Source: an uncultured Lachnospiraceae bacterium (GTDB taxonomy: Bacteria > Bacillota > Clostridia > Lachnospirales > Lachnospiraceae). Taken from it: a DNA stretch of 59,768 nt. Of this stretch, positions 39,397 through 59,768 are shown in pieces (the first letter of the stretch is position 1; each line of letters opens with the position of its first letter). The position numbers and the translations under genes were made by a program. The stretch lies in the NCBI GenBank assembly GCA_947625755.1, contig CANQPJ010000012.1:1-59768 (forward strand), in the 5' to 3' direction. The notes beneath the pieces were generated by a model that did no database searches, was not told where the DNA came from, and saw only the letters and a list, made by a program, of their open reading frames with translations.

Positions 39397-41991
39397 TTAT
39401 TTGTTAAAATTATTCATTTCATCTTCTATCTTTTGAAAAACCGCTTCTACCTCTTCTTTAAAGTTCATTGCTGACATCCTAAGGGCACCATGCCCCATAA
39501 TGATTAATTGTTCTAATCCGTCAGAAGTCGCAACAGTTACTTTATATTTACCTGCCATCTGATGAGTCGTTTTTGATATATACATATCGGCTGTTTCGGC
39601 AGCTTTGGTAAAAACAACATACACATTGTCATATTTATATATTGTCTCTTTATGACGATTCACATTATATGCATCAAATACAACAATCACTGTATTTCCC
39701 TTATATCCCTGATAATTTGAAAGAATATCCAATAATTTATCTCTTGCGCCATCTATATTTTTTAATGCAATACTTTTCAAATCATCCCATGCAAAAATAA
39801 TGTTATACCCATCTACCAGAACACACTCCGGCAGATTATTGTTATATTTTCCTTTATATTTTTTTGCTTTGTTATCATAAGTCCTGACTTTTGTCTCCGT
39901 ATAATTCTTGCGCTTAATAGGACCAAAGGTATTTTCAAAAATAGCTTCTAATTCTTTATCTGCTGCATAAGAATCATAGTTCTCTTGAAAAGAAGTCACC
40001 CCTGACACCCTATTTAAGTCATTCTCCTGCTTTTGAATTTCGACATTGGAAGAATTTAAATTCAGGTCTGTCTTCACATGCATATAATTATCAACTTCAT
40101 TCCATGGAACATTAAAACCTGCACCATGGGCACAAAATACAGAACCGGTAGGATTATTCAAATCCGCCTCGCTGTCATAACCAATCTTTTCTATCACTTC
40201 TTCTGCATTATGACAAGGTGCATATCCTTTAAATTTTAATGTGAGGGTTCCCTGCCCGTGAGAATACTCATTGACATCATTCATATAATTCCACATAGTT
40301 GATACAGGTGCATATCCAGTGAGTACACTTTTGTCATTTTTTGTTTCCGGCGGCTTAATACAACCCTCCATCTGATTAATATCCGTCATAGCCTTACCCA
40401 CATATTCTGTAGGTATGGTTAAAATAAAGTCATAATATGGTTCAAGAAGAACAGACTCTGCCTTTTTTAAACCTTGTCTTACAGCACGATAAGTTGCCTG
40501 CCGGAAATCTCCACCTTCCGTATGTTTTAAATGAGCCTTTCCACCTACAATTGTAATACACATATCTGTAATAGGCGCACCGGTTAAAACACCTCTGTGC
40601 ATTTTTTCTTCTAAATGTGTCAGAATAAGCCTCTGCCAGTTTTTACTCAACTCCTTTTCCGTAACACTGCTCGAAAAAGTAAGTCCGCTTCCCGGAACTC
40701 CCGGTTCCATCAGCAAATGTACCTCTGCATAATGTCTTAAAGGCTCAAAATGCCCCACACCTTCTACGGTATCTGCAATGGTTTCCTTATATAATATACT
40801 TTCGGAACCAAAGGTCACATCATAATCAAACCGCTCTTTTATCATGGTTTTTAAAACTTCTATTTGAATAGGACCCATTACATTGGCTGTAAGTTCCTTT
40901 TTTTCCTCATTCCATGATATTTTTAATGTAGGATCTTCTTCCTCCAGCTCTTTAAATTGTTTATATACCTGATGTATATTTACCTGATTTTCCACAATTA
41001 TTTTGTATGAAAGCACCGGAATCAGATTCGGTTCTATCCTCTCTGTTTCAACGCCCAAGCCTTCTCCCGGATAAGTATTGTTAAGTCCACAGACAGCACA
41101 GACATCTCCCGGCATTGCTTCACTAACTGCCTGATATTTTTCTCCTGAATAAATACGGATTTCATTTACTTTTTCCGCCCATTCTTTTGCTCCATTGATT
41201 CCACTGATAACATCTTTTACTTTCAGACTGCCACCCGTTATCTTCATATGAGTCAGTCTGTTATTATTCTTATCCTTGGAAATTTTATATATTCTTGCGC
41301 CAAATTTTTTTGAATAAACAGGTTCAAATGTATATTGGTATAATCCCTCTAATAAACTATCCACTCCGTCTAACTGCAGTGCAGAGCCAAAATAACATGG
41401 AAACAACTCCCTGTTATACACCAGTTCTGATATTACAGAATTACTGATTTTTCCACCTTCCATATACATTTCAAACAAATCTTCATTGCACATAGCTATA
41501 TCTTCCAGCGTTCCTACATGAACAGGAAATCCCACCACAGTATCACACAGCTTTTCTTTCAATTCATGTAATAAAAATTCACTGCTCACATTGGGCATAT
41601 CCATTTTATTTACAAAAATAAAAGCAGGAACATTATATCTCTCCAACAGTTTCCACAAAGTCTCCGTATGTCCCTGAACCCCTTCGCTTCCACTAACAAC
41701 CAGAATGGCATAATCCAATACAGACAATGTACGCTCCATTTCAGCTGAAAAATCTATATGCCCGGGAGTATCCAAGAGTGTTATTTTCATGTCTTCATAT
41801 TCCATAACTGCCTGTTTTGAAAAAATCGTAATACCACGTTCTTTTTCCAGCCGATAGTTATCCAAATATGCATCCTTATGGTCTACTCTGCCTAATTTTC
41901 TTATTTTTCCTGTTAAATATAATAGTGATTCTGACAAAGTAGTCTTTCCACTATCTACATGCGCCAAAATTCCTATTGTAATTTTTTTCAT
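39397..41991 (-). CDS. TetM-like ribosomal GTPase fused to a YacP/Rae1-type NYN nuclease domain
   Basis: An 864-residue two-part protein. Residues 1 to about 640 form a TetM/TetO-like EF-G relative: G1 AHVDSGKTT, G2 region RGITIFSK, G3 DTPGH, G4 NKMD, then EF-G domains II-V (FGARIYKISKDKNNNRLTHM; PVSTMWNYMNDVNEYSHGQG). After a linker (ELEAIFENTFGPIKRK), residues about 720-855 form a NYN domain of the YacP/Rae1 family: VLVDGYNIIFAWDDL, ARDKLLDIL, VVFDAYNV, AAETADMYISK, VATSDGLEQLI and GALRMSAM, with all catalytic acids. Rae1 in B. subtilis cuts mRNA in the ribosomal A site, where TetM-type GTPases bind, so a ribosome-directed mRNA cutting or rescue factor is likely (inference). It is probably not an acquired tetracycline-resistance gene. 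Transcribed alone. Confidence 0.85.
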   Translation of the reverse strand: MKKITIGILAHVDSGKTTLSESLLYLTGKIRKLGRVDHKDAYLDNYRLEKERGITIFSKQAVMEYEDMKITLLDTPGHIDFSAEMERTLSVLDYAILVVSGSEGVQGHTETLWKLLERYNVPAFIFVNKMDMPNVSSEFLLHELKEKLCDTVVGFPVHVGTLEDIAMCNEDLFEMYMEGGKISNSVISELVYNRELFPCYFGSALQLDGVDSLLEGLYQYTFEPVYSKKFGARIYKISKDKNNNRLTHMKITGGSLKVKDVISGINGAKEWAEKVNEIRIYSGEKYQAVSEAMPGDVCAVCGLNNTYPGEGLGVETERIEPNLIPVLSYKIIVENQVNIHQVYKQFKELEEEDPTLKISWNEEKKELTANVMGPIQIEVLKTMIKERFDYDVTFGSESILYKETIADTVEGVGHFEPLRHYAEVHLLMEPGVPGSGLTFSSSVTEKELSKNWQRLILTHLEEKMHRGVLTGAPITDMCITIVGGKAHLKHTEGGDFRQATYRAVRQGLKKAESVLLEPYYDFILTIPTEYVGKAMTDINQMEGCIKPPETKNDKSVLTGYAPVSTMWNYMNDVNEYSHGQGTLTLKFKGYAPCHNAEEVIEKIGYDSEADLNNPTGSVFCAHGAGFNVPWNEVDNYMHVKTDLNLNSSNVEIQKQENDLNRVSGVTSFQENYDSYAADKELEAIFENTFGPIKRKNYTETKVRTYDNKAKKYKGKYNNNLPECVLVDGYNIIFAWDDLKSIALKNIDGARDKLLDILSNYQGYKGNTVIVVFDAYNVNRHKETIYKYDNVYVVFTKAAETADMYISKTTHQMAGKYKVTVATSDGLEQLIIMGHGALRMSAMNFKEEVEAVFQKIEDEMNNFNK

Positions 41992-42671: not shown

Positions 42672-42700
42672 CTGATACAGAAAATTATAAAGTTTAGAGA

Positions 42701-42996
42701 AATCCATAACCGGTGAGGATGAATTACATATATCTTTTATAAAACAAGCCAAATATATATGTAAATTCTTGGAAAATCCATAGCAGGTGAAAATGAATTA
42801 CATATATTTTTTACAAAACTAGCCAAATATACATGTAAAATTTAGGGAAATCCATAACCGGTGAGAATGAATTACATATATTTTTTACAAAACTAGCCAA
42901 ATATATGTGTAAATTCTTGGAAAATCCATAGCAGGTGAAAATATATTACATATCTATATAAAATTATAAAATGCTAATATATGTAAATTATAAATA
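42701..42996 (+). repeat. 74-bp tandem repeat, four units with 148-bp higher-order period
   Basis: The sequence AATCCATA starts at 42701, 42775, 42849 and 42923, exactly 74 bases apart. Units 1 and 3 read CCATAACCGGTGA and units 2 and 4 CCATAGCAGGTGA, so the array is a duplicated two-unit dimer; the fourth unit decays after about 40 bases. Each of the first three units carries GAATTACATATAT and a partly complementary ATATATGTAAATTC-type arm, giving a hairpin about 50 bases long, and an ATG at 42719, 42793 or 42867 placed behind GGTGA and opening reading frames of 7 or 9 codons (MNYIYFLQN in units 2 and 3). Function unknown. Confidence 0.9.
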
Positions 42997-43139: not shown

Positions 43140-43226
43140 TTAAAATTTACCTTCATCTGCAGCTTGTTGAACAGATACTGCGACTGCAACAGTCATACCG
43201 ACCATTGGATTGTTGCCCACACTAAT
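43140..43226 (-). pseudogene. 3' remnant of a GGGtGRT-protein gene cut by element insertion
   Basis: On the minus strand the frame reads GNNPMVGMTVAVAVSVQQ, then AADEGKF and stop. This matches the C-terminus of GGGtGRT proteins (family memory: GMGNNPMVGATVAVAV near the end). Upstream of the VGNNP codons homology ends at about 43220 and the frame is closed at 43229 by a stop. The remaining N-terminal part is expected at the far, unseen end of the element, possibly with a substitute 3' end provided by the element. Identification is from memory of the family, without a search. Confidence 0.65.
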
Positions 43227-43426: not shown

Positions 43427-43443
43427 GGGTGGTGGATGTGGTG
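43427..43443 (+). promoter_or_regulatory. G-rich 17-mer, copy 1 (upstream of integrase)
   Basis: GGGTGGTGGATGTGGTG on the coding strand, 70 bases before the integrase ATG, followed by ATTT and an AT-rich GATAATAATA that could be a -10 region. Same sequence on the coding strand before three other element genes. Contains four GG pairs with spacers 1, 1 and 4, compatible with a two-tetrad G-quadruplex. Confidence 0.75.
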
Positions 43444-43513
43444 ATTTATATAGATAATAATACAATTAAATACATTTTAACAAACACAATCTTTAGTAGA
43501 AAGGAGAAGAACT

Positions 43514-44830
43514 ATGAACGCAAAAACAGGAACTATTAATGTAGATAGTTATGAAACCAAAAAAGGGCTTCGCTGGAGATACCGAATTGAAATACCGGGA
43601 ACATCCGGTAAAAGAAAATATTTAACAAAGTCTGGCTTTCATAAGAGAAAGGATGCTTTAGATGCTGGAAGCAAAGCTCTATCTATCTATATATCAACCG
43701 GAAAAACATATGCTACCAATATTTCTTATGGAGATTTTCTTGATAAGTGGATTGAAGATGAGGTAACTCAACGATGTAAAGAATCTACTACTATTGGTTA
43801 TCAGAAAAAAATTAAAAACTTAATTAAGCCATCACTCAAAAATTATAGAATAAAAGATATAAACAGACAAATGCTTCTCGATTTTCTGCGAAAACTTTAT
43901 GATGATGGTTACAGTTTTAATACCATATCCGGAGTCAAAGGGATATTATCTTCAAGTTTTAAATATGCTGTAAATTCAGATTTAATCCCCTATTCTCCGG
44001 CAAATGATCTTACTTCAATGAAAAAAGGCGGACGACCACCTAAAAGAAAAACAAGATTAAAGCCAAATCGCTACCTTAAAAAAGAAGAAATGGACAAAAT
44101 CTTCAAAAGATTTCCTGAAGGCAATCCTGCTCACCTTCCATTAATGATAGCCTATCATTGTGGTTTACGTCTTGGAGAAGTATACGCATTGACATGGGAA
44201 GATATTGATTTTGAAAATAAACGTCTATATGTAAACAGACAAATTCAGTGGATGCAGGATCCTAAACGTTCTAGGGTAGATAAAATAATGAAAAACGGCT
44301 TGAAAGACGCCGGAGATGGCTACTGGTATTTTACCGAACCCAAATATAGAAGTTATCGTAACATTAACATTGACGAGAAACTGTTAGCTCTGCTGGAACG
44401 TTCCAAGAAAAGAAATGAATTAAGTCGTTTTTACATTGGACCCTCCTATACACATTATTATAGTGAAAACGAACTTATTCACAGAGGTGATAAAAATTCT
44501 TCTGCCATTCCTGACAACAAAATTGTGGATTATAATACAGGGCATGAAGTAAATTTCATTATGACTCGCGAAGATGGTACATATATTACCCAGCGAACAA
44601 AAATGCACATGACAACAATAATAAAAAAACAGTTAGGAATTGAGGACTTTACCTTCCACAGCCTGCGTCATACACACGGTACAATGCTTCGTGATGCCGG
44701 TTGTCCTGAAATATATATTGCGAACAGGCTTGGACACGCAAGAATTGAAACCACAGTACAGATTTACACAAACCACCTTACAGATAGCATGAAAAATTTA
44801 GGAAATGAAGCTCTCTCGAAATTATTTTAG
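43514..44830 (+). CDS. int: Tyrosine recombinase / integrase
   Basis: A 438-residue phage/Tn916-type integrase. Seen: N-terminal arm-binding domain (YETKKGLRWRYRIEIPGTSG, typical AP2-like start of these integrases), SAM-like core-binding domain (YGDFLDKWIEDEVTQ ... INRQMLLDFLRKL), and the catalytic domain with first Arg in YHCGLRLGEVYALTWEDID, H-x-x-R in FHSLRHTHGTMLRD, His in RLGHARIETTVQ, and the nucleophile in IYTNHLTDSM. All catalytic residues present. AAAGGAG before the ATG. The gene is the only plus-strand gene of the element and convergent to the excisionase gene. Confidence 0.95.
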   Translation: MNAKTGTINVDSYETKKGLRWRYRIEIPGTSGKRKYLTKSGFHKRKDALDAGSKALSIYISTGKTYATNISYGDFLDKWIEDEVTQRCKESTTIGYQKKIKNLIKPSLKNYRIKDINRQMLLDFLRKLYDDGYSFNTISGVKGILSSSFKYAVNSDLIPYSPANDLTSMKKGGRPPKRKTRLKPNRYLKKEEMDKIFKRFPEGNPAHLPLMIAYHCGLRLGEVYALTWEDIDFENKRLYVNRQIQWMQDPKRSRVDKIMKNGLKDAGDGYWYFTEPKYRSYRNINIDEKLLALLERSKKRNELSRFYIGPSYTHYYSENELIHRGDKNSSAIPDNKIVDYNTGHEVNFIMTREDGTYITQRTKMHMTTIIKKQLGIEDFTFHSLRHTHGTMLRDAGCPEIYIANRLGHARIETTVQIYTNHLTDSMKNLGNEALSKLF

Positions 44831-44836
44831 TAAAAA

Positions 44837-44870
44837 AAATAAAGGCTGTTCAAAAGCCTTTATTTTTTTT
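44837..44870. terminator. Terminator between integrase and excisionase genes
   Basis: Stem AAATAAAGGCT with AGCCTTTATTT, 7-base loop, flanked by A-run and T-run, so it works for both convergent transcripts. Confidence 0.9.
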
Positions 44871-44871
44871 G

Positions 44872-45114
44872 CTATTCATTATTTATCTTCTCATGCGCTA
44901 AAATAAAATCATATATGGCACCACGCCGTATCTTTCTTCCGGATACACCTGAAATATAAGGTATCTTCCCCGTATTTACAAGTTCATACATTTTATTTTT
45001 TCCAATCCCCAATATAAGCCTTGCCTGATCTAAAGACAAAAGATCATACTCCCCTTCCCGATAAGTCTTTTTTGACTCACTTATCTCTTTTTCGCTTATT
45101 ACTTGCTCAATCAT
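44872..45114 (-). CDS. xis: Excisionase-like DNA-binding protein
   Basis: An 80-residue protein with an excisionase/MerR-like winged helix: LLSLDQARLILGIGKNKMYEL for the helix-turn-helix and KIPYISGVSGRKIRRGAIYDF for the wing. Similar to Tn916-type Xis and to HTH_17 proteins. AAAGGAG upstream. It is the last gene of an operon that begins at 46659 and whose promoter region carries the G-rich 17-mer, so excision and integration functions share a control element. Confidence 0.85.
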   Translation of the reverse strand: MIEQVISEKEISESKKTYREGEYDLLSLDQARLILGIGKNKMYELVNTGKIPYISGVSGRKIRRGAIYDFILAHEKINNE

Positions 45115-45151
45115 GTCCTACTCCTTTCTTTAATTTATGTGTTAAGCGAGC

Positions 45152-45520
45152 TTACCTGATAAACTCGCCCATTCTAACCCCTTGTCGGCTTCGTTCAAAG
45201 TCTACCTGTTCGCTTATGAGCATTTTCAGTTCCCCAACTCCAAGAATGGATCCTACTCGGAGCATTGGAGTGGATTTATCGGCAGACATGACTATTAAAG
45301 AACCCGTTCCAAAAATTCGTTCCGGTATTGTTTTACTGACCGAAATATCACAGATTCTAAAGAGTCTTACTTCGCTAAAAGAATACCTTAAAAATCCGCT
45401 TTCAATATATAACGCTCTGTTTGTAAGAGTATATTTTGTAAATGGATTTTTAAATCTTAAAAAGCGTTTATATCCACTCCATAATACTTTTTCATTTTCT
45501 CTTAATATCAACTCTGACAT
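45152..45520 (-). CDS. Small PH-like (bPH) domain protein
   Basis: A 122-residue protein with the pattern of bacterial pleckstrin-homology domains: ENEKVLWSGYKRFL, then YTLTNRALYIESGF, the hydrophobic strands DISVSKTIPERIFGTGSLIV and SADKSTPMLRVGSI. No membrane helix, unlike YdbS proteins. Function in the element is unknown. It lies 11 bases after the S1-like gene and 37 bases before xis. AAGGTGA ribosome site. Confidence 0.65.
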   Translation of the reverse strand: MSELILRENEKVLWSGYKRFLRFKNPFTKYTLTNRALYIESGFLRYSFSEVRLFRICDISVSKTIPERIFGTGSLIVMSADKSTPMLRVGSILGVGELKMLISEQVDFERSRQGVRMGEFIR

Positions 45521-45531
45521 AGCACTTCACC

Positions 45532-46659
45532 TTAAAACTCACTGGAAATAACTTTAGTAATTAATCCAACAGATGTATTGCTTTCTGCATCTTTTCTTTT
45601 GCACACATATGAAACCACATCGCCCACCATGGGCGTTCTACGACCGGAAACACTATGCGCAATGGCATTTACTTTATTTTTAAGAGTGATAAAATATACA
45701 CCATTGTTATAATCCGTAATCGTGCCACGGGTTTTAGAACCCACCTGATGATTTTCAAAGGCAATACGCGTCCAATCCTTTTCAAATTTCTTGTGGTTTG
45801 CCTTAATTTTAATTCCCATTAACCATTTTTCATCATTTTCACACCCTTCAAACGGTTCCGGATAATCAATTTCAGAAACATGAACAAGGATATAATCACC
45901 CGCTGAAAACATTTTGCCCAAATCCACAACCCACTCATAGAAAATATCTTTTGCATTGATCTGTGTTTGGATTCCAAACACATCCACCCTGATATTTTTC
46001 TGTCCAACGGACAAAATTCTTGCCTGCACATCCGGTGTGTTTGCAACTTTTGACACTCTGTTTTCGTCCAATTCCGCGTAATAGGTCTTTATCTTATCCA
46101 AAATTGCGGCTTTTCTTGAAGCTAATACAAGCCCTTCTTTTTTATCAACGCTTTTAATTACAAAATCTATTTCCGCACCAAGCATATTGGAAGCCAGTTT
46201 GAATAATCTTGTGTCCTCGTCTTCAGTAAATTTTGCATCGGTCGATAATTGTAATCCCATTTCCTTTAACGGGATTATGATTCTCTGGTTTTTATAGTAT
46301 GTAACCACAATCCCATGTCCATTCGGTGTTCTGCTGACTTCGTCAATGGTATTTCGCAGGCTTCTTCCATTATGAAAAGCAGTTTTTAATTCATGCCATA
46401 ATTCTTCTTCTGAATCAATAATTTTCAGATTATCGTCCGGATCAATCGTAAGAACAGCACTACTGGTATGTTCCGGCTTATTTGCATATGCCTTTTTTTC
46501 CGGCACTTTTTTTACAACATCCTGTTTTCTCCTGTCGCTTTTCCATATACTGTCCTGATTTTTCTCTACTTGTGATGTGTTACCACTATCAACCTCCTTT
46601 TCCCCTTGTAGTTTACTGATTTCTTCACTTACATCAATGTCTTTGAACTCTTCGCTCAT
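45532..46659 (-). CDS. S1/OB-like domain protein of the element
   Basis: A 375-residue protein, unknown function. The N-terminal 75 residues are low complexity and charged. A central region (HELKTAFHNGRSLRNTIDEV, GIVVTYYKNQRIIIPLKEMG) has no clear family. The second half holds two S1-like OB repeats: QARILSVGQKNIRVDVFGI with TQINAKDIF, and TRGTITDYNNGVYFITLKNK with VNAIAHS, MVGDVVSYVCKR. S1 domains bind RNA, so RNA binding is likely. First gene of the operon with the PH-like protein and xis. AGGAGG precedes the ATG, and a G-rich 17-mer lies 69 bases upstream. Confidence 0.65.
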   Translation of the reverse strand: MSEEFKDIDVSEEISKLQGEKEVDSGNTSQVEKNQDSIWKSDRRKQDVVKKVPEKKAYANKPEHTSSAVLTIDPDDNLKIIDSEEELWHELKTAFHNGRSLRNTIDEVSRTPNGHGIVVTYYKNQRIIIPLKEMGLQLSTDAKFTEDEDTRLFKLASNMLGAEIDFVIKSVDKKEGLVLASRKAAILDKIKTYYAELDENRVSKVANTPDVQARILSVGQKNIRVDVFGIQTQINAKDIFYEWVVDLGKMFSAGDYILVHVSEIDYPEPFEGCENDEKWLMGIKIKANHKKFEKDWTRIAFENHQVGSKTRGTITDYNNGVYFITLKNKVNAIAHSVSGRRTPMVGDVVSYVCKRKDAESNTSVGLITKVISSEF

Positions 46660-46727
46660 TTGAAACCTCCTGAAATTTTATTCAGATGTACTGCGCACCT
46701 GTTACTTCTTATTATCACTAAAAAAAT

Positions 46728-46744
46728 CACCACACCCACCACCC
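46728..46744 (-). promoter_or_regulatory. G-rich 17-mer, copy 2 (upstream of S1-like/PH/xis operon)
   Basis: GGGTGGTGGGTGTGGTG on the minus strand, one base different from copy 1, followed by ATTTTTTTAGT and GATAATAA, as in copy 1. Located 69 bases before the first gene's start codon. Confidence 0.75.
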
Positions 46745-46930
46745 TATGCAAATTTTTTCACTTTTTTTATTAAATCAATTTATTTTATCTTTTTAGGACT
46801 CTAACGCAATCTCACATACCCGCTTAATTGACGTTTTTCATCTGTCTTTTCCGAAATTTTCTCAACACGATTTATCTGATGCCTTATCTTATTTTACAAA
46901 AAACAGATGGGCAAACAGTCATTTATTTTT

Positions 46931-47374
46931 CTAATAATCAATTTTTTTCCCATCTTTAAATATCGCAGCCGAATACTGATTAACCACATATCCCTCTGTT
47001 TGCATGAACACATAACCGGTATTTGAAAATTCCAAAACCTCTTTTTCCTCATAATTTTCGCTGACAACATTGAGTAATTTATGTTTGGTAACCGTATATT
47101 GTCCGGTAAGCCGCATATACTCTAATTTTTCAACCAAATTCAAAACTTTTTTTGCGCGGATATACTGTCTGGTGATTTCTTCCATACATTTTGTTTCTTT
47201 TTTTAGCCTTAATTTATCATTGCCTGCCATTGCTTTGCTTATTTTACAATTACAGGCATCAATTTTCTGTTTTAATCTGACCACTTCACAGATGCGGTCT
47301 CTATAATAGAATAACCAACAGTTTAAAATTTCGCTTTCCTTTAATTTATCTTTTGCATTTGCTTCATTCGGCAT
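46931..47374 (-). CDS. Element protein of unknown function, helical
   Basis: Not recognised. From the ATG at 47374 (GAGGGG upstream) the protein has 147 residues. The frame opens 18 codons earlier with no ribosome site. The central part is helical with heptad-like Lys/Glu/Leu (VVRLKQKIDACNCKIS, RLKKETKCMEEITRQYIRAK), followed by a beta-rich end (VLEFSNTGYVFMQTEGYVV). Two internal cysteines (CNC). It is preceded by a G-rich 17-mer at 47489-47505, and no clear terminator follows in the 271-base gap 46660-46930. Confidence 0.6.
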   Translation of the reverse strand: MPNEANAKDKLKESEILNCWLFYYRDRICEVVRLKQKIDACNCKISKAMAGNDKLRLKKETKCMEEITRQYIRAKKVLNLVEKLEYMRLTGQYTVTKHKLLNVVSENYEEKEVLEFSNTGYVFMQTEGYVVNQYSAAIFKDGKKIDY

Positions 47375-47488
47375 AATAAAACCCCTCAACTTCAGTAATT
47401 TTTTTTTAAGAGTTACCTGATTTCCCACAACTTAATATGTGATTTCCGGTTTCCTTTTGTAGATACTATTACTTTAAGAAATGCAAAT

Positions 47489-47505
47489 TACCACATCCAC
47501 CACCC
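47489..47505 (-). promoter_or_regulatory. G-rich 17-mer, copy 3
   Basis: GGGTGGTGGATGTGGTA on the minus strand, differing from copy 1 only at its last base, followed by ATTTGCATT and AGTAATAGTAT. It lies between the terminator of the upstream gene and the gene at 46931-47374, 114 bases before the latter's start. Confidence 0.72.
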
Positions 47506-47529
47506 CGCAAAAAAATTTTTGTCAAATTT

Positions 47530-47564
47530 TGTCAAAAAAAATAAGAGGCGGCTGACGCCACCTC
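47530..47564 (-). terminator. Terminator of the zinc-ribbon-like gene 47573-48985
   Basis: Stem GAGGTGGC/GCCGCCTC with a 4-base loop, then TTATTTTTTTT on the minus strand, 8 bases beyond the stop. Confidence 0.85.
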
Positions 47565-47572
47565 AAATCCTT

Positions 47573-48985
47573 TTACTCTAGATTGCCCCGCAGCAATATT
47601 CTTCCATTATTTCTCGCAAGAATACACTTATCCGAATTAATGCTTTTATATAAGTATGCGATGTTCTTTTCATAAAGAGAAAAAAGTGCCGGAAGATACA
47701 GCGCTCTCTTTTTTGCAAAAGAAATGGTATTCTCAATACTTCTTGATAATTCATACATATCATCATCAAATATAACTTCACTGTCTGGTTTACAATCTTT
47801 TAACTTCCGATTCTGTTCGATATATTCGTTGCCGCATTTATTTTCAAGCCAACCGATATACCATCTATTTCTTTCTCTAGTCCAACCAATATCCATAAGG
47901 CTCGGCTTATAAAAATTCATGTCACTTATATTCGCAGCATTTCGGGATAACGTCTGACATGTTTTTGAAAACTCTGTTCCGTTAAAAAGATATTGCATAA
48001 TGCAGATGTCTACTATTTGATTTGGATCAAAATCCTTGATTTTACTCATGGCACTTCTTAATGAATTAATGAATTTAATATCGTCGGAAATACTTGCAGC
48101 ATCCATAATCTTATTGAAATCATCTCCGCATTTCATTTTAATATAGGTTTTTCTAAAGCTGTCAAACTTATCCAGTGATTTGCACATACCCGCATTTTCT
48201 AATGGCATGGTAAAAACCTCACCATTGCGAATGGTGTCTTCCGTCAACTTTTTACTGCTTTTTACACTCAACCTCAATTTTGATTCGTATTTTTTATCAC
48301 AATTATTATGATTAAAATCATTAAACAGCAATATTAAAACCTTTTCCACCTGTGCGCATTTGCATTCAGTGATAATTTTCAAGAAATTCTTATTTTCACG
48401 CAGAAACAGATAAATAATAATACGGTTTAACTCATCGGATATTTTTATTTTATCCATAAACCCGCTCACTTTAGGATACCATTCCTTATTCTTATCAGTC
48501 TCCATCAGGTCATGCCATATGTCTTCCCATTCTGTATAATCTTCAAAATAATCACATCTTTCCTTTTCGATATTTTTATTTTGATCATATATATCTTTAT
48601 AAGATAAAGTTTTCAATTTACAACTGGTAATTATATTGCAAGCCGGATATGTTTTTATTGAACACTCACAGCTTACAAAATTGGTTCCATCAGATTTCGC
48701 CAGCGTCGCGCCAATATCATACAGATAAGAATCTTTTTTTTCTCTAATTCCACAGTATGGACAGGTCACATAGTAAATCCAATCTTTCTTGCTCATGTAC
48801 ATATCTTTTTCCGCTTCGGCGAAACTGCTGAAATGTCCGCAAGAATGGCACACCGAGAAATACCATTTTTTAATTCCCCGATTAAAACAATAAAGTTTGC
48901 CGTTTAAGCGATTGTCCTGCTGTCTGATGACGCCTTTCGTTATTATAGCTATTTTATTACTGCATTTTTTAATCAACTCCTGCAT
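47573..48985 (-). CDS. Element protein of unknown function with N-terminal zinc-ribbon-like cysteines
   Basis: Not recognised. A 470-residue protein whose first quarter carries metal-binding cysteine pairs: SVCHSCGHFSSF and VTCPYCGIREKK, about 28 residues apart, plus SCECSIKTYPAC. This could be one treble-clef or two ribbons. The rest is alpha-helical with aromatic-rich stretches (CDYFEDYTEWEDIWHDLM; MDIGWTRERNRWYIGWLENK) and no nuclease or ATPase motif I could find. I considered the PcfJ family and rejected it for lack of its signatures. AAAGGA precedes the ATG. Probably a nucleic-acid-binding protein of the element. Confidence 0.55.
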   Translation of the reverse strand: MQELIKKCSNKIAIITKGVIRQQDNRLNGKLYCFNRGIKKWYFSVCHSCGHFSSFAEAEKDMYMSKKDWIYYVTCPYCGIREKKDSYLYDIGATLAKSDGTNFVSCECSIKTYPACNIITSCKLKTLSYKDIYDQNKNIEKERCDYFEDYTEWEDIWHDLMETDKNKEWYPKVSGFMDKIKISDELNRIIIYLFLRENKNFLKIITECKCAQVEKVLILLFNDFNHNNCDKKYESKLRLSVKSSKKLTEDTIRNGEVFTMPLENAGMCKSLDKFDSFRKTYIKMKCGDDFNKIMDAASISDDIKFINSLRSAMSKIKDFDPNQIVDICIMQYLFNGTEFSKTCQTLSRNAANISDMNFYKPSLMDIGWTRERNRWYIGWLENKCGNEYIEQNRKLKDCKPDSEVIFDDDMYELSRSIENTISFAKKRALYLPALFSLYEKNIAYLYKSINSDKCILARNNGRILLRGNLE

Positions 48986-49024
48986 ATTATTTTCCTTTCC
49001 ATAAAAGGCTGATAAACAGCCGTT

Positions 49025-49282
49025 TTATTCTTTATTTTTTATATTCCATTCTTCTCCTGCCCAAAATACGGCTTCGGATTCCCTTTTTCCCAGAAATTCA
49101 TTGATTGTTTCCTTTATGGTTCCTTCCAAAAATTCTTTTAGTGATTTTTCCACAATCAAAACTGCTTTTTCCAGTACATATTCTTTCTTTTCTTCCGACC
49201 AGTCCGTCATATTTTCCCAAATATACTCTTCAAGAACCTCTTTTTCAGATTCCTCTCCTATCATTAAGTCTTTTTCAATCAT
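49025..49282 (-). CDS. Small acidic protein of unknown function
   Basis: An 85-residue protein, rich in Glu and Lys, likely all-helical (EKEVLEEYIWENMTDWSEEK; LKEFLEGTIKETINEFLG). No family recognised. GAGGTAATTGTC precedes the ATG. It sits 39 bases before the gene 47573-48985 without a terminator between them, so the two are probably co-transcribed. Confidence 0.55.
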   Translation of the reverse strand: MIEKDLMIGEESEKEVLEEYIWENMTDWSEEKKEYVLEKAVLIVEKSLKEFLEGTIKETINEFLGKRESEAVFWAGEEWNIKNKE

Positions 49283-49324
49283 GACAATTACCTCTTTTCG
49301 TTAATATTTCTTTCTTAAATAAAG

Positions 49325-49356
49325 AAAAGGTAATCCATGTTTGCAGATTACCTTTT
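49325..49356 (-). terminator. Terminator of the DUF932-like gene
   Basis: Stem AAAAGGTAATC with GATTACCTTTT and 10-base loop, T-rich afterwards, 9 bases beyond the stop codon of the gene 49365-50489. Confidence 0.85.
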
Positions 49357-49364
49357 CAAAGCCA

Positions 49365-50489
49365 TTACAAATCGGTCAATTCTGCTTCTCTATCAAATTT
49401 AGGGAAATCATAACCGATAATTCTTGCAACCTTTTCCTGATAGTTAAAGATTTTACTAAATGAAGCACCCTGTTCCTTTGCGATTGTCAGTAATTCACTG
49501 ACACCGAAAATATAAAGAATAAGTCCGTCGGTTTCTCCATTTCCAAATTGCTCATTGAAACGAAGCGCTGTTTCTTTTACCATTTTAGGTGGCAGATCAG
49601 CTTTCTTTAACAAACCATAAACGCATCCGACAGGGTGTTTGATTGTTATTTTTTTCAATTCATATAACTCGTAAAACCTTTTCTTATAACTTGCAAACAC
49701 ATCTCTCATGATGTCCGAAAAATCTGATAAAGACACATTTCCTTTATGATTTAATTTATAGCCATTGCCTAAAACTACTGTCCTGTTATCACATTTCAAA
49801 TGGTACCAGACAGTGGCAGCTGAAGTTCCGACATCGGAAGTGAAGACGGAAACGACTGTTTGGATTTCTTTTTTATTAATTGGAATACCCAATTCGCTGA
49901 AAACTTCCACATAAGCATCAATTATCTCTTTGTCTGCAATATTCCAACTGGCGGTCATATAATCGTGACTCCATGTGCCCCCGATAAAAACCTTATAGGA
50001 ATATCTTTCGATTGCTGCTCTTGCCGTCCTGAAAATTCCTGACTGGGGAAGGGGCTGATAATTTTTGCTATGACAAGCCCGAACCTTATCTCCGCAGACT
50101 CTTATCAGGGTTCCACCGGATGATACCGGCAGGCATGTGTTAAGAATTGCAGCCAATTCCGCTCTTGATACCTTTTCTAACGAAGTACCTGAAATTCCTG
50201 CCCTTGCCTTGAGTGTCGGAAGTGCAGATGCTCCGATATTATAATCTTTATTCTTCACGGACAGCATCAAATTACTACCATGCAGCACGGTATCATTAAA
50301 CGTTTCATCCGTAACGCCTTCAATTACGTCCTTGTTGTTTCCCGCATAGGAGATTTCCATTTCCCCGCTTTTTTCAACCTCCAGCCAAGCGGAATCTTTA
50401 TCCATTTCAGATAAAAAGTCCTGAAAATCTTCGGCATATTTAAAGACCTTGCATGTGCTATCACTTATAATACTTTCTCTTTGATACAT
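49365..50489 (-). CDS. DUF932-like plasmid/phage protein
   Basis: A 374-residue protein resembling the DUF932 (phage/plasmid-related, TIGR03299-like) family, whose members accompany recombination genes in plasmids and prophages; the match is from pattern memory and moderate. Seen: HGSNLMLSVKNKDYNIGASA, KVSRAELAAILNTCLPVSSG, GDKVRACHSKNYQPLPQSG, VSVFTSDVGTSAATVWYHLK, GNGYKLNHKGNVSL. No catalytic motif known. AAAGGAG precedes the ATG. Own terminators on both sides make it a single-gene transcript. Confidence 0.55.
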   Translation of the reverse strand: MYQRESIISDSTCKVFKYAEDFQDFLSEMDKDSAWLEVEKSGEMEISYAGNNKDVIEGVTDETFNDTVLHGSNLMLSVKNKDYNIGASALPTLKARAGISGTSLEKVSRAELAAILNTCLPVSSGGTLIRVCGDKVRACHSKNYQPLPQSGIFRTARAAIERYSYKVFIGGTWSHDYMTASWNIADKEIIDAYVEVFSELGIPINKKEIQTVVSVFTSDVGTSAATVWYHLKCDNRTVVLGNGYKLNHKGNVSLSDFSDIMRDVFASYKKRFYELYELKKITIKHPVGCVYGLLKKADLPPKMVKETALRFNEQFGNGETDGLILYIFGVSELLTIAKEQGASFSKIFNYQEKVARIIGYDFPKFDREAELTDL

Positions 50490-50523
50490 ATAAACATTCT
50501 CCTTTCGTATACAAATCTTTCAA

Positions 50524-50566
50524 TAAAAAAATTGAACTGTATTAATGATTCGATAAACAGTTCAAT
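50524..50566 (-). terminator. Terminator of the YqaJ nuclease gene
   Basis: Arms ATTGAACTGT and ACAGTTCAAT with 16-base loop and TTTTTT after the stem on the minus strand. Confidence 0.88.
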
Positions 50567-50587
50567 CCTTACAATAATACTATTTAC

Positions 50588-51745
50588 TTATACTGCTTCC
50601 TTCCGTTTGTCATAAAACTTAATATCTTTGGATGACTTAACCCTTATAAAGCCGGATGAACGCAGATAATTGTACAGTTTTTCATCAAATTTCTTTAAAT
50701 CTCTTATTTTGTCTACGGGAACATTTTCCGTAATCTTTTCATTAAATGAAATCCCAACATCACATTCCCGGTTTTTAAGATTAATGATGCATTCCTGTTC
50801 TTCGCCGATATTTGCTTCGATAACTGACTGTAATCTGCATATTTCCTTATTACAGTCTTTCTTTTGCTTATCTAACCTGCTTTTTTCGGCTGACAGTTCA
50901 TCAATCCGCGCAAACAGTTCTTCATAAGAACCTTCAACGGTGTCACCGTTCATTACGTCTTCGCTTCCATCAATACGCCTTACTTTGGTATTATTTGCCG
51001 GTACAATCCATTTCTTTGCAGATGCTTTCACACTTTCACCGACTTCAATATATGGCGGCTCAATCCCCGCTTCAACATAATCCTGCCAGAAATGTCTTCC
51101 TGCCTCAATCAAATCAGCTTCGGCATCTAAATCCCTTTCCAATGTTCTTATAATCAGGGAATTTAAGTTATTGTCATAAAGACAGGCATAAATAATCCCT
51201 GAAACATTAGTCACACAGGCATAACTGCGACCTTGCAGTATATAGCTTTCAGGAATGGCTGGAGCATATTCATCACCCCATTTGAAACGATTGTTATATC
51301 CCGTCGTTTTAATTTCCAGAATATACGTCCTCACCACTCCTTCAGAGTCTTTAATGTCAACAAAATAATCAACATCTGCAAGCATCCAATAATACTTTGG
51401 ATGGCGGAACATTTTGCGCACTGCATACGGTTTGTAACCGGTTCGCTCATAAAAGGCTTTTGCCACTAACTCCTCGATTCTATGACCGTACTCCAATACA
51501 AACCAGTTTTCTTCCGGTTCCCAATATGGTTTGTTACCGACTTTATCCATATACAAATCCCGGGCTGTTTTAAACCCTGATAGTCCATAGATAATACCAT
51601 AGTCTGATCCGCCAATGCCGGTTTTTCTGTACTGCAACCACTCCTCATTTGTCAAGGCGGTTATATCCTGACAGATAACCTCTGGTTTATAATCCAAATC
51701 CAGTGTTTTTCCATTGGCAGCATGATAGATTAATTCTTTCTTCAT
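50588..51745 (-). CDS. YqaJ-type phage recombination exonuclease
   Basis: A 385-residue lambda-exonuclease-like protein of the YqaJ family, which resects double-stranded ends for single-strand annealing. Seen: WLQYRKTGIGGSDYGIIYG (the family's GGSD start), LEYGHRIEELVAKAFYERTG with the conserved Glu, and the PD-(D/E)xK core MLADVDYFVDI with YILEIKTT, then ILQGRSYACVTNV. The C-terminal part has a coiled coil (RIDELSAEKSRLDKQKKD) after residue 270. ATG at 51745 behind GAGGTGA; the GTG three codons earlier overlaps the ribosome site. Its partner is probably the ERF-like protein at 57463-58536. Confidence 0.9.
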   Translation of the reverse strand: MKKELIYHAANGKTLDLDYKPEVICQDITALTNEEWLQYRKTGIGGSDYGIIYGLSGFKTARDLYMDKVGNKPYWEPEENWFVLEYGHRIEELVAKAFYERTGYKPYAVRKMFRHPKYYWMLADVDYFVDIKDSEGVVRTYILEIKTTGYNNRFKWGDEYAPAIPESYILQGRSYACVTNVSGIIYACLYDNNLNSLIIRTLERDLDAEADLIEAGRHFWQDYVEAGIEPPYIEVGESVKASAKKWIVPANNTKVRRIDGSEDVMNGDTVEGSYEELFARIDELSAEKSRLDKQKKDCNKEICRLQSVIEANIGEEQECIINLKNRECDVGISFNEKITENVPVDKIRDLKKFDEKLYNYLRSSGFIRVKSSKDIKFYDKRKEAV

Positions 51746-51770
51746 TTTAATCACCTCTTTTTTCTTTCTG

Positions 51771-51836
51771 TTACCTTACTGTACATTCATTACAGCAACA
51801 CTTCTGCAAATCAAACAAATATATTTGTTTTTCCAT
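51771..51836 (-). CDS. Unannotated 21-residue cysteine-rich peptide
   Basis: Small ORF MEKQIYLFDLQ then KCCCNECTVR (21 residues) with an ideal AGGAGG six bases before its ATG, in an otherwise empty gap and 25 bases upstream of the YqaJ gene. It ends in four cysteines suited to metal or Fe-S binding. It lies just after a terminator and the conserved RNA-like element, so it may be a leader peptide controlling YqaJ or a real small protein. Support is the ribosome site, the position and the odd composition. Confidence 0.55.
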   Translation of the reverse strand: MEKQIYLFDLQKCCCNECTVR

Positions 51837-51852
51837 GTTTTTCCTCCTTTCT

Positions 51853-51887
51853 TCAACAAAAAAAAGGCGCACAAAAAGTACGCCTTT
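51853..51887 (-). terminator. Terminator-like hairpin before the small peptide gene
   Basis: Stem AAAGGCGTAC/GTGCGCCTTT, UUUUU loop, followed by eight T on the minus strand. It lies between the conserved 59-nt element (upstream) and the ribosome site of the peptide gene (12 bases downstream), the arrangement of an attenuator. Confidence 0.85.
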
Positions 51888-51907
51888 CTACCATAAAGTA
51901 ATTCAAA

Positions 51908-51968
51908 ATAATAAGACCTCAAAAGTCATAAACAGATTCTTGCTTACGCCTCTATCAATCTTATTATA
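51908..51968 (-). ncRNA. Candidate structured RNA/DNA element, copy 1
   Basis: On the minus strand: P1 arms of 9 bases (51959-51967 with 51908-51916, ATAATAAGA and its complement) enclose GATTGATAGAGGC, a GC(GTAA)GC mini-hairpin and ATGAC-loop-GTC. It aligns over 59 nt without gaps to 59154-59212, about 42 identities, with the blocks GATTGATAGAGGC and GTCTTATT fully conserved. Followed by a terminator and TTGAAGAAAG. No known riboswitch family recognised. Confidence 0.45.
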
Positions 51969-52033
51969 AATTTTAATAGATATATGTTTATTTGTCAATT
52001 CGTAAAATTTAATTTTTTGCTTTAAGTAATCTT

Positions 52034-52558
52034 TTATTCATACCTATCATTTTTTACTTCTAACCTACTATATCCGGGTTCTCTTGCCCTAACAGATCCC
52101 ACTATGACTTCATGTTCATCAACTCTTTCAAGTTCATAAGAGATAGATCCTTCTATCCATTCAATACTGTCTTCATCGCTATCATACGGTGTCCCTAATT
52201 CACTGGTAATAGTGCTTTTTAAAGTCTCATAATCATCTATGTCAAAATCAAACCATATGTAAGAAAGTCCATTAACTTTACATATATAATGTGCTTTGCA
52301 TTCACAACCCAAAAAACTGGTTACAGTTCCTCTTGATTTTGATTCGTTATCAGTTTCGCCCCATTCGTGAGAACCTAAAACTTTTCTTTCAAAAGAAGAT
52401 TCTGCACTATTTAAAGAATCACTGGCAGACGTCGGATTATATTCTTCAGAATCTATAACGTTTCTTTCATAAGAAGATTTTGCACTATTTGAAGAATGAC
52501 TGGTAGGCGGCGTTGCACCACATCCTGCCAACAAACACATAGTTACTACCATTGCCAT
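52034..52558 (-). CDS. Putative lipoprotein with duplicated segment
   Basis: A 174-residue putative lipoprotein, function unknown. The lipobox LLAGC comes only 12 residues after the first ATG, short for a signal peptide. Upstream in frame, with no ATG, the codons read KRKNGQKIESLF, a normal positively charged leader, so the ancestral start may have been lost or be non-ATG; there is no good ribosome site at the present ATG. After the Cys, a 26-residue segment is duplicated (SYERNVIDSE and SFERKVLGSH; DNA copies 78 bases apart, from 52383 and 52461). The C-terminal half is acidic and beta-rich (YIWFDFDIDDYETLKSTITS). Confidence 0.55.
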   Translation of the reverse strand: MAMVVTMCLLAGCGATPPTSHSSNSAKSSYERNVIDSEEYNPTSASDSLNSAESSFERKVLGSHEWGETDNESKSRGTVTSFLGCECKAHYICKVNGLSYIWFDFDIDDYETLKSTITSELGTPYDSDEDSIEWIEGSISYELERVDEHEVIVGSVRAREPGYSRLEVKNDRYE

Positions 52559-52711
52559 AAATAAAGATTCTATTTTTTGTCCGTTTTTACGTTTTAGAAA
52601 ACCAATTTTGCTTTAAATTACCGTTTTTCATGGGGCTTTTGTGTGCAGATGATCTCATATCGGATTAGAGATGGGTAAAAACCCGCTGAATTAAAAAAAC
52701 GGAAAATAACT

Positions 52712-53335
52712 TCAACTGCTGATATTTAATAATAAAGGAACCAAGTACAATATACAGGGACTCATCATCTTAATCCAATCTTTTACGTCGTGTTCTTCTT
52801 TCCATTCAACCGTATCCAGTTCTTTTACTGCTTTATCTGATAAACTGTCAATAAAAAGAAGATAAAAATCAATAAATTCTTCCTTATCATAAGCATAAAA
52901 ATTTATACATATGGTATCTGCTTTCACTATATCATCATCAATCATATACCGGCTGTTCTCGGTTGCTGTATCATACCATATCTGAACGCCCTCCTTTACT
53001 TTCATAACATTCGTTATTTCCGGAATGTATATCTTTCCAATTTGATACTCTCCGTTTACAAGTTGTTTAAATTCCAAATATGTAGCGGATAACCTGATAA
53101 AGCAGTCATCTAATTCATAAATCACGTTTTTTAAATTGCTGCCGTTTAAATACATGAACACGCCGCCCAAAAATGATATAATAAACAAAATAAGAAAATT
53201 TACACTGTGCTCAATCAACAGAAACGCCAGCAGCGATATGCCTGTACAGACTGCATATGTAATGCATAGTGTTTTATACTCCTTTAATAGTTTTATTTTT
53301 TTTATTGTGACATCGTTTTTTGCCCTTATCTCCAT
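52712..53335 (-). CDS. Membrane PH-like protein of the element
   Basis: A 207-residue membrane protein, unknown function. Two adjacent helices (about 24-42 and 46-63: TYAVCTGISLLAFLLIEHS, NFLILFIISFLGGVFMYLNG) are followed by a beta-rich cytoplasmic domain (VIYELDDCFIRLSATYLEFK; GKIYIPEITNVMKVKEGVQI) like bacterial PH domains, and a final helix (CILYLVPLLLNIS). The layout 2 TM + PH + 1 TM resembles YdbT/YdbS relatives. Close to the lipoprotein gene downstream; the 17-mer copy 4 lies 60 bases upstream of its start codon. Confidence 0.6.
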   Translation of the reverse strand: MEIRAKNDVTIKKIKLLKEYKTLCITYAVCTGISLLAFLLIEHSVNFLILFIISFLGGVFMYLNGSNLKNVIYELDDCFIRLSATYLEFKQLVNGEYQIGKIYIPEITNVMKVKEGVQIWYDTATENSRYMIDDDIVKADTICINFYAYDKEEFIDFYLLFIDSLSDKAVKELDTVEWKEEHDVKDWIKMMSPCILYLVPLLLNISS

Positions 53336-53394
53336 TTCTTTACTCCTAGATTCTAATTATTTCATGGGTTAATCGTAGCGTAGCATCGGACTTT

Positions 53395-53411
53395 CACCAC
53401 ATCCACCACCC
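53395..53411 (-). promoter_or_regulatory. G-rich 17-mer, copy 4
   Basis: GGGTGGTGGATGTGGTG on the minus strand, identical to copy 1 over all 17 bases, 60 bases before the start of the membrane PH-like gene and directly after the terminator of the RecD2-like gene. Confidence 0.75.
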
Positions 53412-59029: not shown

Positions 59030-59079
59030 GTTATTACCTCTCAAACTACCACTCCTTTCTTTCATGTTTTAAGAAAAGA

Positions 59080-59122
59080 GAATTATTATAAATTAATACT
59101 ATCACAACAATTCTCTTTCTTC
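59080..59122 (-). promoter_or_regulatory. Inverted repeat and promoter candidate upstream of hicBA
   Basis: On the minus strand TTGAAG and TAGTAT are 17 bases apart, a reasonable sigma-A promoter for hicBA. The same region contains the inverted repeat AAGAAAGAGAATT / AATTCTCTTTTCTT, so the promoter is embedded in a hairpin or operator-like palindrome. Confidence 0.45.
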
Positions 59123-59153
59123 AATAAAATAAAATTGTAAAAAAAAGTAAAAA

Positions 59154-59212
59154 AATAAGACTGGTAAAGTCATTAACAACAAATGCTGTAAGCCTCTATC
59201 AATCTCTTTATA
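59154..59212 (-). ncRNA. Candidate structured RNA/DNA element, copy 2
   Basis: Minus-strand sequence of 59 nt, gapless relative to 51910-51968: shared GATTGATAGAGGC, AATGAC-or-TATGAC with a 7-base loop and GTC, then TTATT. Followed by T-run (TTATTTTTTTAC) and by TTGAAGAAAG, as is copy 1. It lies between the 2H phosphoesterase gene and hicBA. P1 pairing is weaker here than in copy 1. Class not recognised. Confidence 0.45.
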
Positions 59213-59238
59213 TATCATATAATAAAATTCTCTTTAAG

Positions 59239-59748
59239 TCAATAAAAAAGGCGTTTTTGACAGCGCAATGCAACAGTATAAATTTCCTCTACCGGAAACG
59301 GTACTTTGACCAACCCGATTGAAACGAATTCTCCACTCATTTTTCTAAACTCGCGTAAAATCAAGTCGCTCGCTTTGTAAAAAACTTCTTCGTCATCATC
59401 TTTGGTAAGAGCTAAAGTGCAATGCGGAGCCCATCTATTTGGATAATACCATTCCCAGCCAGTTGAATCAAAATCCTTTAAATGCTCATGCAAGTCTCTT
59501 TGAAATTGATACATACTATCGTTCATCATAGGTGATGCAAAAATTGTCCTTGTGTCAGTAAACATTCCAACAGAAGCGATATATGCCGGCATTGTTTTAT
59601 GTGTATGAGCAAAACTTTTTAATTGTTCAGAACATTTTGTTTCATCAACATCATTGAAACAAGCCAATGTAAGATGCGGTCTTGTTTTCCATTCTACTAC
59701 AATATATTTATGGTTAATATCCCTTACAGCCAGTAAGGAATTACCCAT
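59239..59748 (-). CDS. 2H phosphoesterase (2'-5' RNA ligase-like)
   Basis: A 169-residue 2H-superfamily protein with both catalytic HxT motifs: RPHLTLACF (about residue 24) and APHCTLALT (about residue 109). The family hydrolyses or ligates 2',3'- or 2',5'-linked RNA ends and some cyclic oligonucleotides, so it may trim RNA ends or degrade signalling nucleotides of host defence (inference). The ATG lacks a good ribosome site and the frame stays open to the window edge (codons before it read YSLSNK), so the true start may lie outside. Confidence 0.8.
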   Translation of the reverse strand: MGNSLLAVRDINHKYIVVEWKTRPHLTLACFNDVDETKCSEQLKSFAHTHKTMPAYIASVGMFTDTRTIFASPMMNDSMYQFQRDLHEHLKDFDSTGWEWYYPNRWAPHCTLALTKDDDEEVFYKASDLILREFRKMSGEFVSIGLVKVPFPVEEIYTVALRCQKRLFY

Positions 59749-59768
59749 CTTGTTGCTTAAGCTGTATA

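Follow-up and report, generated by a model that had tools for sequence, protein, structure and literature searches.

The stretch analyzed here (the window) is contig CANQPJ010000012.1 of an uncultured Lachnospiraceae bacterium (GenBank assembly GCA_947625755.1), 59,768 nucleotides long and referred to as C12, which ends in part of an integrated mobile element that continues on another contig, C2. We found that a G-rich 17-mer, hereafter the G-box, recurs upstream of genes of this element, including those for its integrase and its Rep3 replication initiator; judged by its placement, it is a promoter signal that works at the DNA level and belongs to one integrated element. The 17-mer is likely to be the operator of an element-specific class-II activator, which would make a promoter together with a sigmaA-type -10 hexamer and no -35 hexamer, and a single factor linking the integrase, excision-type and other genes is probably the simplest reading. 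In our judgement, the excision and copying decisions of such integrated elements are little mapped; a box with an exact promoter geometry provides both a bait for the regulator and a list of controlled genes, including adhesins that ride with the mobility genes.

Distribution and anatomy of the G-box

The box itself, its spacing, strand and targets, and its restriction to this element among the genomes searched, are matters of direct observation. Using pattern and matrix scans, we found that GGGTGGTGGATGTGGTG has four matches at up to three mismatches in the window and no further site there: 43427..43443 (plus strand, no mismatch), 46728..46744 (minus, one mismatch), 47489..47505 (minus, one mismatch) and 53395..53411 (minus, no mismatch). 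A preliminary description of this DNA, made from the letters and open reading frames, had placed four copies at these positions and strands; dinucleotide shuffling predicts 0.03 matches, and four were reached in 0 of 100 shuffles. The host genome comprises 2,247,604 bases in 51 contigs, of which the window is one complete contig. In this whole genome the 19-base form GGTGGTGGATGTGGTGATT has ten matches at up to three mismatches, compared to none for the reversed pattern. The window thus holds part of the set: in addition to its four copies, there are four on C2 (4590, 8852, 10222 and 10973, all minus strand), one on a further contig, C33 (4629, plus strand), and a match at C2:66159 that sits within a 611-codon open frame, RecJ-like by eye. 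Eight of the ten matches are inside the element (C12 and C2:1-23760), one is on C33, which is unplaced relative to it, and one is coding.

A weight matrix was built from the nine non-coding sites and the same sites were scored, so that the result is the score gap and not the height of the scores: the nine sites reach 24.6-36.5 bits, and the next best site in the scanned stretches reaches 12.8. The four boxes of the window score 31.1-36.5 bits, versus a best score of 11.3 in its first 43,000 bases, consistent with the earlier statement that the 43 kilobases (kb) of chromosome hold no copy. The next-best scores are 12.8 bits in the element part of C12, 12.2 in C2:1-20000, 8.7 in C2:20001-23800 and 11.9 on C33, and the best on C2 beyond the element is 8.1. 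Many chromosomal matches unlinked to gene starts, against which the preliminary description had cautioned, did not turn up in the scan of the host genome. A repeated-word search upstream of genes also recovered the box in the element part of the window; on C2 alone, the box was not among the three words listed, and in 12 stretches from relatives the words were mainly ribosome-site-like or purine-rich.

The box is a direct repeat, GTGGTGGAT-GTGGTGATT (GTGGTG-N3-GTGGTG), with a period of 9 base pairs (bp) and a more constant second half. In the alignment of the nine sites, mean pairwise identity is 0.88 in the 17-mer versus at most 0.42 in 17-base flank windows, and the spacer bases T7 and T11-G12-T13 are invariant. 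Without exception, the nine sites lie on the coding strand of the gene that follows, and seven of them end 48-114 bases before its start. In the window, the distance from box end to start codon is 70 bases for the integrase gene, 68 for an operon that begins with an S1-like gene, 114 for the gene of a protein of 147 amino acids (aa) and 59 for a putative membrane protein gene, in keeping with the coding-strand position and the 60-115 bases described earlier. On C2, the distances are 72 bases for a Cna adhesin gene, 64 for the gene of a 118-aa secreted protein, 48 for a 133-aa protein gene (to its first possible start) and 315 for rep; on C33, the box ends 178 bases before a 366-aa protein gene.

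Downstream of the box, the spacing to a -10-like hexamer is nearly fixed. The preliminary description had noted ATTT after three of the four window copies, which we also see, followed by an AT-rich segment; such a segment does follow the box, but a more accurate description is a -10 hexamer some 13 bases downstream. Scanning for -10 sequences located these as GATAAT (offset 10) or AATAAT (offset 13) at 43453..43461 (plus strand) for the integrase promoter, GATAAT (offset 12) at 46711..46716 (minus) for the S1-like operon, TAAAGT (offset 13) at 47471..47476 (minus) for the 147-aa gene, and TACGCT (offset 13) at 53377..53382 (minus) for the membrane protein gene. Over the nine sites, TAnnnT starts exactly 13 bases after the 17-mer in seven, namely those before the 147-aa gene, the membrane protein gene, the Cna adhesin, 118-aa, rep and 133-aa genes of C2, and the C33 gene. 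Shuffling the downstream stretches 20,000 times gave a maximum TAnnnT count of 5 at any of 54 offsets, and 7 was never reached; the observed score with a -10 matrix, for which the 133-aa site was one base out of register, was reached in 0 of 1000 shuffles. Counted from a -10 hexamer at -12 to -7, the box would span about -41 to -25. The suggestion that the motif sits at the place of a -35 hexamer is thus borne out by the sigmaA-like -10 sequence that follows at nearly fixed spacing. The hexamer at the -35 position itself reads TGGATG in the exact copies, a match to TTGACA in three of six bases, and A and T runs are abundant upstream of it in the box promoters.

The first gene behind a window box encodes a tyrosine integrase of 438 aa (43514..44830, plus strand; Pfam PF00589, E 5.6e-23). 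The second box precedes three minus-strand genes, which we consider one operon because their intergenic gaps are 11 and 37 bases: (i) an S1-like protein of 375 aa (45532..46659), with weak S1 matches below the cut-off; (ii) a bacterial PH-domain protein of 122 aa (45152..45520; Pfam PF03703); and (iii) an HTH_17 protein of 80 aa (44872..45114), excisionase- or BldC-like (PF12728, E 4.4e-8; TIGR01764 below the cut-off). The 147-aa protein (46931..47374, minus strand) has no match in Pfam, PHROGs or NCBIfam at the limits used, and the open reading frame for the 207-aa protein (52712..53335, minus strand), a membrane protein by eye, has no Pfam match. On C33, the gene for a secreted protein of 365/366 aa is duplicated in tandem (L012 3432-4529 and 4823-5923; a repeat of about 1.2 kb, 87% identical), and a G-box is found upstream of the second copy only.

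Proposed activation of the box promoters and competing explanations

What we infer concerns activation, one common factor and the identity of that factor. In the proposed mechanism, the factor would bind the 9-bp-period direct repeat at about -41 to -25, over the absent -35 hexamer, and once bound would recruit the host RNA polymerase, i.e., class-II activation. Eight or nine box promoters would be switched on together, which would include the integrase gene, the S1/PH/HTH_17 operon, and the Rep3 initiator gene with the origin, along with those of the Cna-type adhesin, secreted proteins and genes of no assigned function. The absence of a -35 hexamer looks functional because five other units of the same element use TTGAC-N17-TATAAT-like promoters.

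Alternatively, the box could be the operator of an element-encoded repressor which, bound over the -35 and spacer region, would silence the integrase gene, the S1-like operon, rep and other genes until induction. Mobile elements are often held silent by repressors, the box overlaps the expected footprint of RNA polymerase, and its element-specificity is as expected for such a protein. However, a repressor needs no absent -35 hexamer, and the match of TGGATG to TTGACA stays at half the bases while the five other units have good promoters; we therefore consider repression unlikely, although it is the main rival to activation. An alternative sigma factor carried by the element, which the preliminary description had also allowed for, is less probable still. 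Conservation at the -35 place, together with the nearly constant spacing, would fit a sigma-factor promoter, but the box, at 17-21 bases, is far longer than a usual -35 hexamer, and the -10 sequence is of the sigmaA kind, TAnnnT being the positions that sigmaA needs most, so that no dedicated sigma factor is needed. Furthermore, no sigma-factor family was detected by Pfam among 46 proteins of the element or C33, a set drawn from the assembled contigs and not from the missing sequence between them. It excludes small frames, the second of the two secreted-protein copies on C33 and the host GGGtGRT protein described below.

We assign a very low probability to readings without a regulator, in which the boxes are either promoter fragments that were copied recently or copies of a small dispersed repeat. 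Two pairs of sites do share flanks (47489 and C2:4593, 80.6% over 62 bp; 46728 and C33:4628, 83% over 47 bp), but over all nine sites the flanks are far less alike than the box, and every copy points at a gene start. A site of a host-encoded regulator exploited by the element is an equally improbable explanation: it would account for the factor not being found in the element, but apart from C33 the rest of the host genome holds one match, the one in the long open frame of C2, and 22 congeners have no match at up to one mismatch. The two-tetrad G-quadruplex, which the preliminary description saw as allowed by the GG spacing and which might tune transcription or replication, has the least to recommend it and was rejected: four GG runs are present in seven of the nine sites and the other two carry three and two, the spacers are as conserved as the G runs, as fits a protein site, and the fixed strand and -10 spacing would be left unexplained.

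Comparison with other genomes yielded no second example. Exact patterns had no match in viral contigs, and the exact pattern, which would catch five of the nine sites of this genome, had seven single matches in genome contigs. All seven fall inside open frames (221-752 codons), and the records bear the names of other groups, none of them being titled as a relative. The 16.4 kb of the element in the window had no megablast match among plasmids. Proteins of the element do have relatives: the S1-like protein in 29 of 396 other family genomes (25-44% identity), a 374-aa protein in 22 of 396 (25-32%), the integrase in 5 of 386 genomes at E 1e-60 (best 42%), and Rep3 in 9 of 342 (best 50%). At these relatives' loci (89 loci, 566 kb, up to four mismatches) there were five sites versus five for the reversed control, and none had TAnnnT at the offset. 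A G-rich stretch lies near the start of the S1 match at L072, which is a C-terminal fragment. Full-text literature searches for the 15-letter core returned only papers unrelated by title, and no paper on regulators of such elements was found in the open-licence literature with narrow terms, which is weak evidence that their decisions are little mapped.

Several observations weigh against the activator reading. The integrase and S1-like operon sites lack TAnnnT at offset 13, and one of the nine sites, at C2:10976, is degenerate in the first half-repeat. Another of the nine is on C33, unplaced as it is. A related element with the box was not found, and comparative support is confined to one genome. 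Single matches at one mismatch occur in 14 of 396 family genomes versus 4 of 397 with the reversed control, i.e., the background is somewhat raised; we read this as coding sequence because 12 of the 14 matches are in stop-free frames of 130-946 codons (two are not), and TAnnnT at offset 13 follows none of the 14. Finally, no regulator was identified, and the candidate we name is chosen by fold class, repeat period and location.

That candidate is the 80-aa HTH_17 protein. Among the 46 proteins, families that usually bind specific DNA sites are represented by this protein, the integrase, the Rep3 initiator, a C33 resolvase, a Phd-type antitoxin (below the cut-off), a protein in the HicB place and a DNA methylase. 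BldC, of the HTH_17 class, binds head to tail, with a 9-bp direct repeat for each subunit (PMC5859096), and RdfS, of the same class, activates int transcription besides being an excision factor (PMC11963761). Because the BldC class binds 9-bp direct repeats and RdfS activates int, we put forward the HTH_17 protein as the best encoded candidate for the box factor, perhaps, with the odds clearly against it. The element encodes one such protein; BldC and RdfS are likewise small winged helix-turn-helix proteins, but the BldC consensus is AATTXXXX(C), unlike the GTGGTG box (PMC5859096, PMC11963761). Comparison of the 80-aa sequence to solved structures gave no useful match (best E 0.87), and no relatives were found in 105 loci of other genomes. 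The unassembled sequence may hide a better candidate. A bolder and unlikely proposal is that the HTH_17 protein is both the excision factor and the master activator, bound to the 9-bp direct repeat over the absent -35 hexamer of eight or nine promoters. These would be the promoters of the integrase and the adhesins, one that reads through the origin and that of its own operon, which would give positive feedback, while a second family, of RNA attenuators, would gate the ssb, VWA-like and recombination units. If this dual role is true, excision, integration, origin firing and surface display would be one switch.

Similar arrangements are known. The lambda CII sites are direct repeats straddling a poor -35 hexamer, including that of the int promoter pI, with TTGC repeats and another spacing; no CII family turned up in general family scans of the element proteins. 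In phage T4, the MotA box is shorter than the present 17-mer. In T4 middle promoters, a MotA box centred near -30 replaces the -35 hexamer, alike in that a normal -10 hexamer is retained, and unlike in that it belongs to a phage lytic programme and needs AsiA (PMC6755090). In SXT/R391, SetCD boxes are found before xis and the int operon, overlapping or adjoining a -35 position that lacks TTGACA, an arrangement that fits class-II activation (PMC4344509); here, too, one box precedes the integrase gene, an excision-type unit and other units, and replaces or abuts a non-consensus -35. Unlike this system, in which SetCD is an FlhDC-like pair that drives mating-pore genes, no FlhC- or FlhD-type Pfam family is present among the 46 proteins (again exclusive of the inter-contig sequence), and the promoters of the ssb, VWA-like and recombination units are of another family. 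Also unlike SXT/R391, the present host is low in G+C (0.33-0.38 in the window) and probably Gram-positive, because sortase and Cna_B are present. In SGI1, AcaCD boxes are predicted upstream of xis and S004/rep, so that excision and replication are under one activator, that of IncA/C plasmids, as here proposed; the box sequence is unrelated, and SGI1 answers to the activator of a helper plasmid (PMC4207636). Our best reading likens the G-box to the SetCD/AcaCD system in its working, with no claim of membership in that family. If true, a low-GC, probably Gram-positive element would have reached a SetCD-like solution with an unrelated box.

The probable replication origin and a second, transcribed family

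Between the box promoter at C2:10225 and rep, we found tandem 12-bp AT-rich repeats (TAATCA..) and six copies of an iteron with a spacing of 22 bases and one step of 31. This region (L010 9909-10170), before the Rep3 initiator gene, is probably the replication origin of the element. The box is not itself a Rep3 iteron: the iterons form a different array at C2:9927-10065, and the box is single and outside that array. The rep gene was compared to those of genome G207 (the best genome match, 50% identity) and of plasmids pRGI00363 (51%) and pRGI00460 (44%), the best two of 188 plasmid records. The same layout, with iterons before the Rep3 initiator gene, is present in G207 and pRGI00460; the iterons of pRGI00460 contain GGTGGTG, and no stretch there is within four mismatches of the 19-base box. 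In the relatives, the iterons are followed by a promoter with 10 or 11 of 12 consensus bases: TTTACA-17-TATGAT in G207, TTGACT-17-TATAAT in pRGI00363 and TTGACT-17-TATATT in pRGI00460. This promoter precedes rep, or, in pRGI00363, a small gene and rep. At that place the present element has two matches with 9 of 12 consensus bases each, ATGAAA-18-GATAAT, which overlaps the start codon, and ATGAAA-17-TAAAAT, which lies within the iterons; no promoter above chance grade was found there (3 sites in all versus 1.6 expected). Judging from these consensus scans, on which the comparison of rep promoters rests, rep appears to have moved under the box promoter upstream of the origin, and its transcript would cross the origin.

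A second family emerged when the parts of the element were compared to each other by BLAST. All five members have TTGAC-N17-TATAAT-like promoters (the two in the window with 11 and 10 of 12 consensus bases in a promoter scan), and from about the expected start point a leader follows with the core GAGATTGATAGAGGC, ATGACTTT..GGTCTTATTTTTTT; a further hairpin, rich in G+C, stands ahead of a T run in three clear cases. The copies, all on the minus strand, are at 59065-59260 and 51754-52034 in the window, and on C2 at L010 13613-13824, L010 18994-19227 and L011 3455-3560; the leaders precede hicB/hicA, yqaJ, an 86-aa gene, a VWA-like gene and ssb. In the RNAalifold prediction, the leader core pairs with a GGTCTTAT block just before the T run; the covariation term is unfavourable, and the core hardly varies. 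The predicted fold looks like that of a common transcription attenuator; there was no match in Rfam at gathering thresholds. The leader pattern matched this genome three times, each time within the element (two of the five copies differ in length and escape it). Among 22 other genomes, two had one 2-mismatch match each, and the reversed control likewise had such matches in two genomes; the two matches in viral contigs are both in coding sequence. The element thus seems to have two regulons, the DNA-level box and the transcribed-leader family.

The mobile element and neighbouring features

The element is inserted, as its repeated end indicates, in the 3' end of a gene of the GGGtGRT family. An intact copy of this gene is at C2:23759-24769 (Pfam PF14057), and a 78-bp segment at 43141-43218 of the window is 88% identical to its 3' end (C2:23760-23837, i.e., L011 3760-3837); this segment is the attachment-site copy at the left end, just before the integrase gene. 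Because the 3' end of the gene is duplicated, we place the element between about 43140 in the window and about C2:23760, so that it takes up 16.6 kb at the end of C12 and 23.8 kb at the start of C2; the joint is unassembled. The possibility that the G-box is an attachment-site repeat or a set of excision-factor half-sites was rejected: a scan for GTGGTG-type hexamers found none at the left attachment end and a single one, GGGGTG, at the right end. By Pfam, the element encodes the integrase, the HTH_17 protein, a YqaJ nuclease, a RecD2-like helicase and the Rep3 initiator; it also encodes a primase-like protein, a weakly Erf-like protein, an SSB, a surface protein in which nine Cna_B stretches were found, and a VirD4-type coupling protein that passes the NCBIfam cut-off for the CD1115 family.

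C33 carries a sortase and a 1470-aa DUF11 protein. One repeat, of 78 bp, is shared by C33 and the end of C12, and another, of 65 bp, by C33 and the start of C2, which would fit the order C2-X-C33-X-C12; C33 stays unplaced because the repeat of about 80 bp at the ends of C12 and C33 is also found on the chromosomal-looking contigs C19 and C27 (with topA-, rpsB- and tsf-like genes by eye on C27). The four copies, all at contig ends, are at 59688-59768 of the window, L012 6-83 (C33), L136 6-77 (C27) and L137 19850-19928 (C19). The C12 copy forms the start of a 2'-5' RNA ligase-like gene (MGNSLLAVRDINHKYIVVE), and on C19 a MGNSLLAVRDINHKYIVVE-type start is fused to another gene; this repeat may mark the end of a mobile element. 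Immediately to the left of the attachment site, a 74-bp AT-rich unit is repeated in tandem at 42700-42953 of the window (3.4 copies). Further left, in the chromosomal part outside the element, 39397-41991 encodes an elongation-factor-like GTPase of 864 aa with a C-terminal extension, which by eye resembles ribosome-protection proteins.

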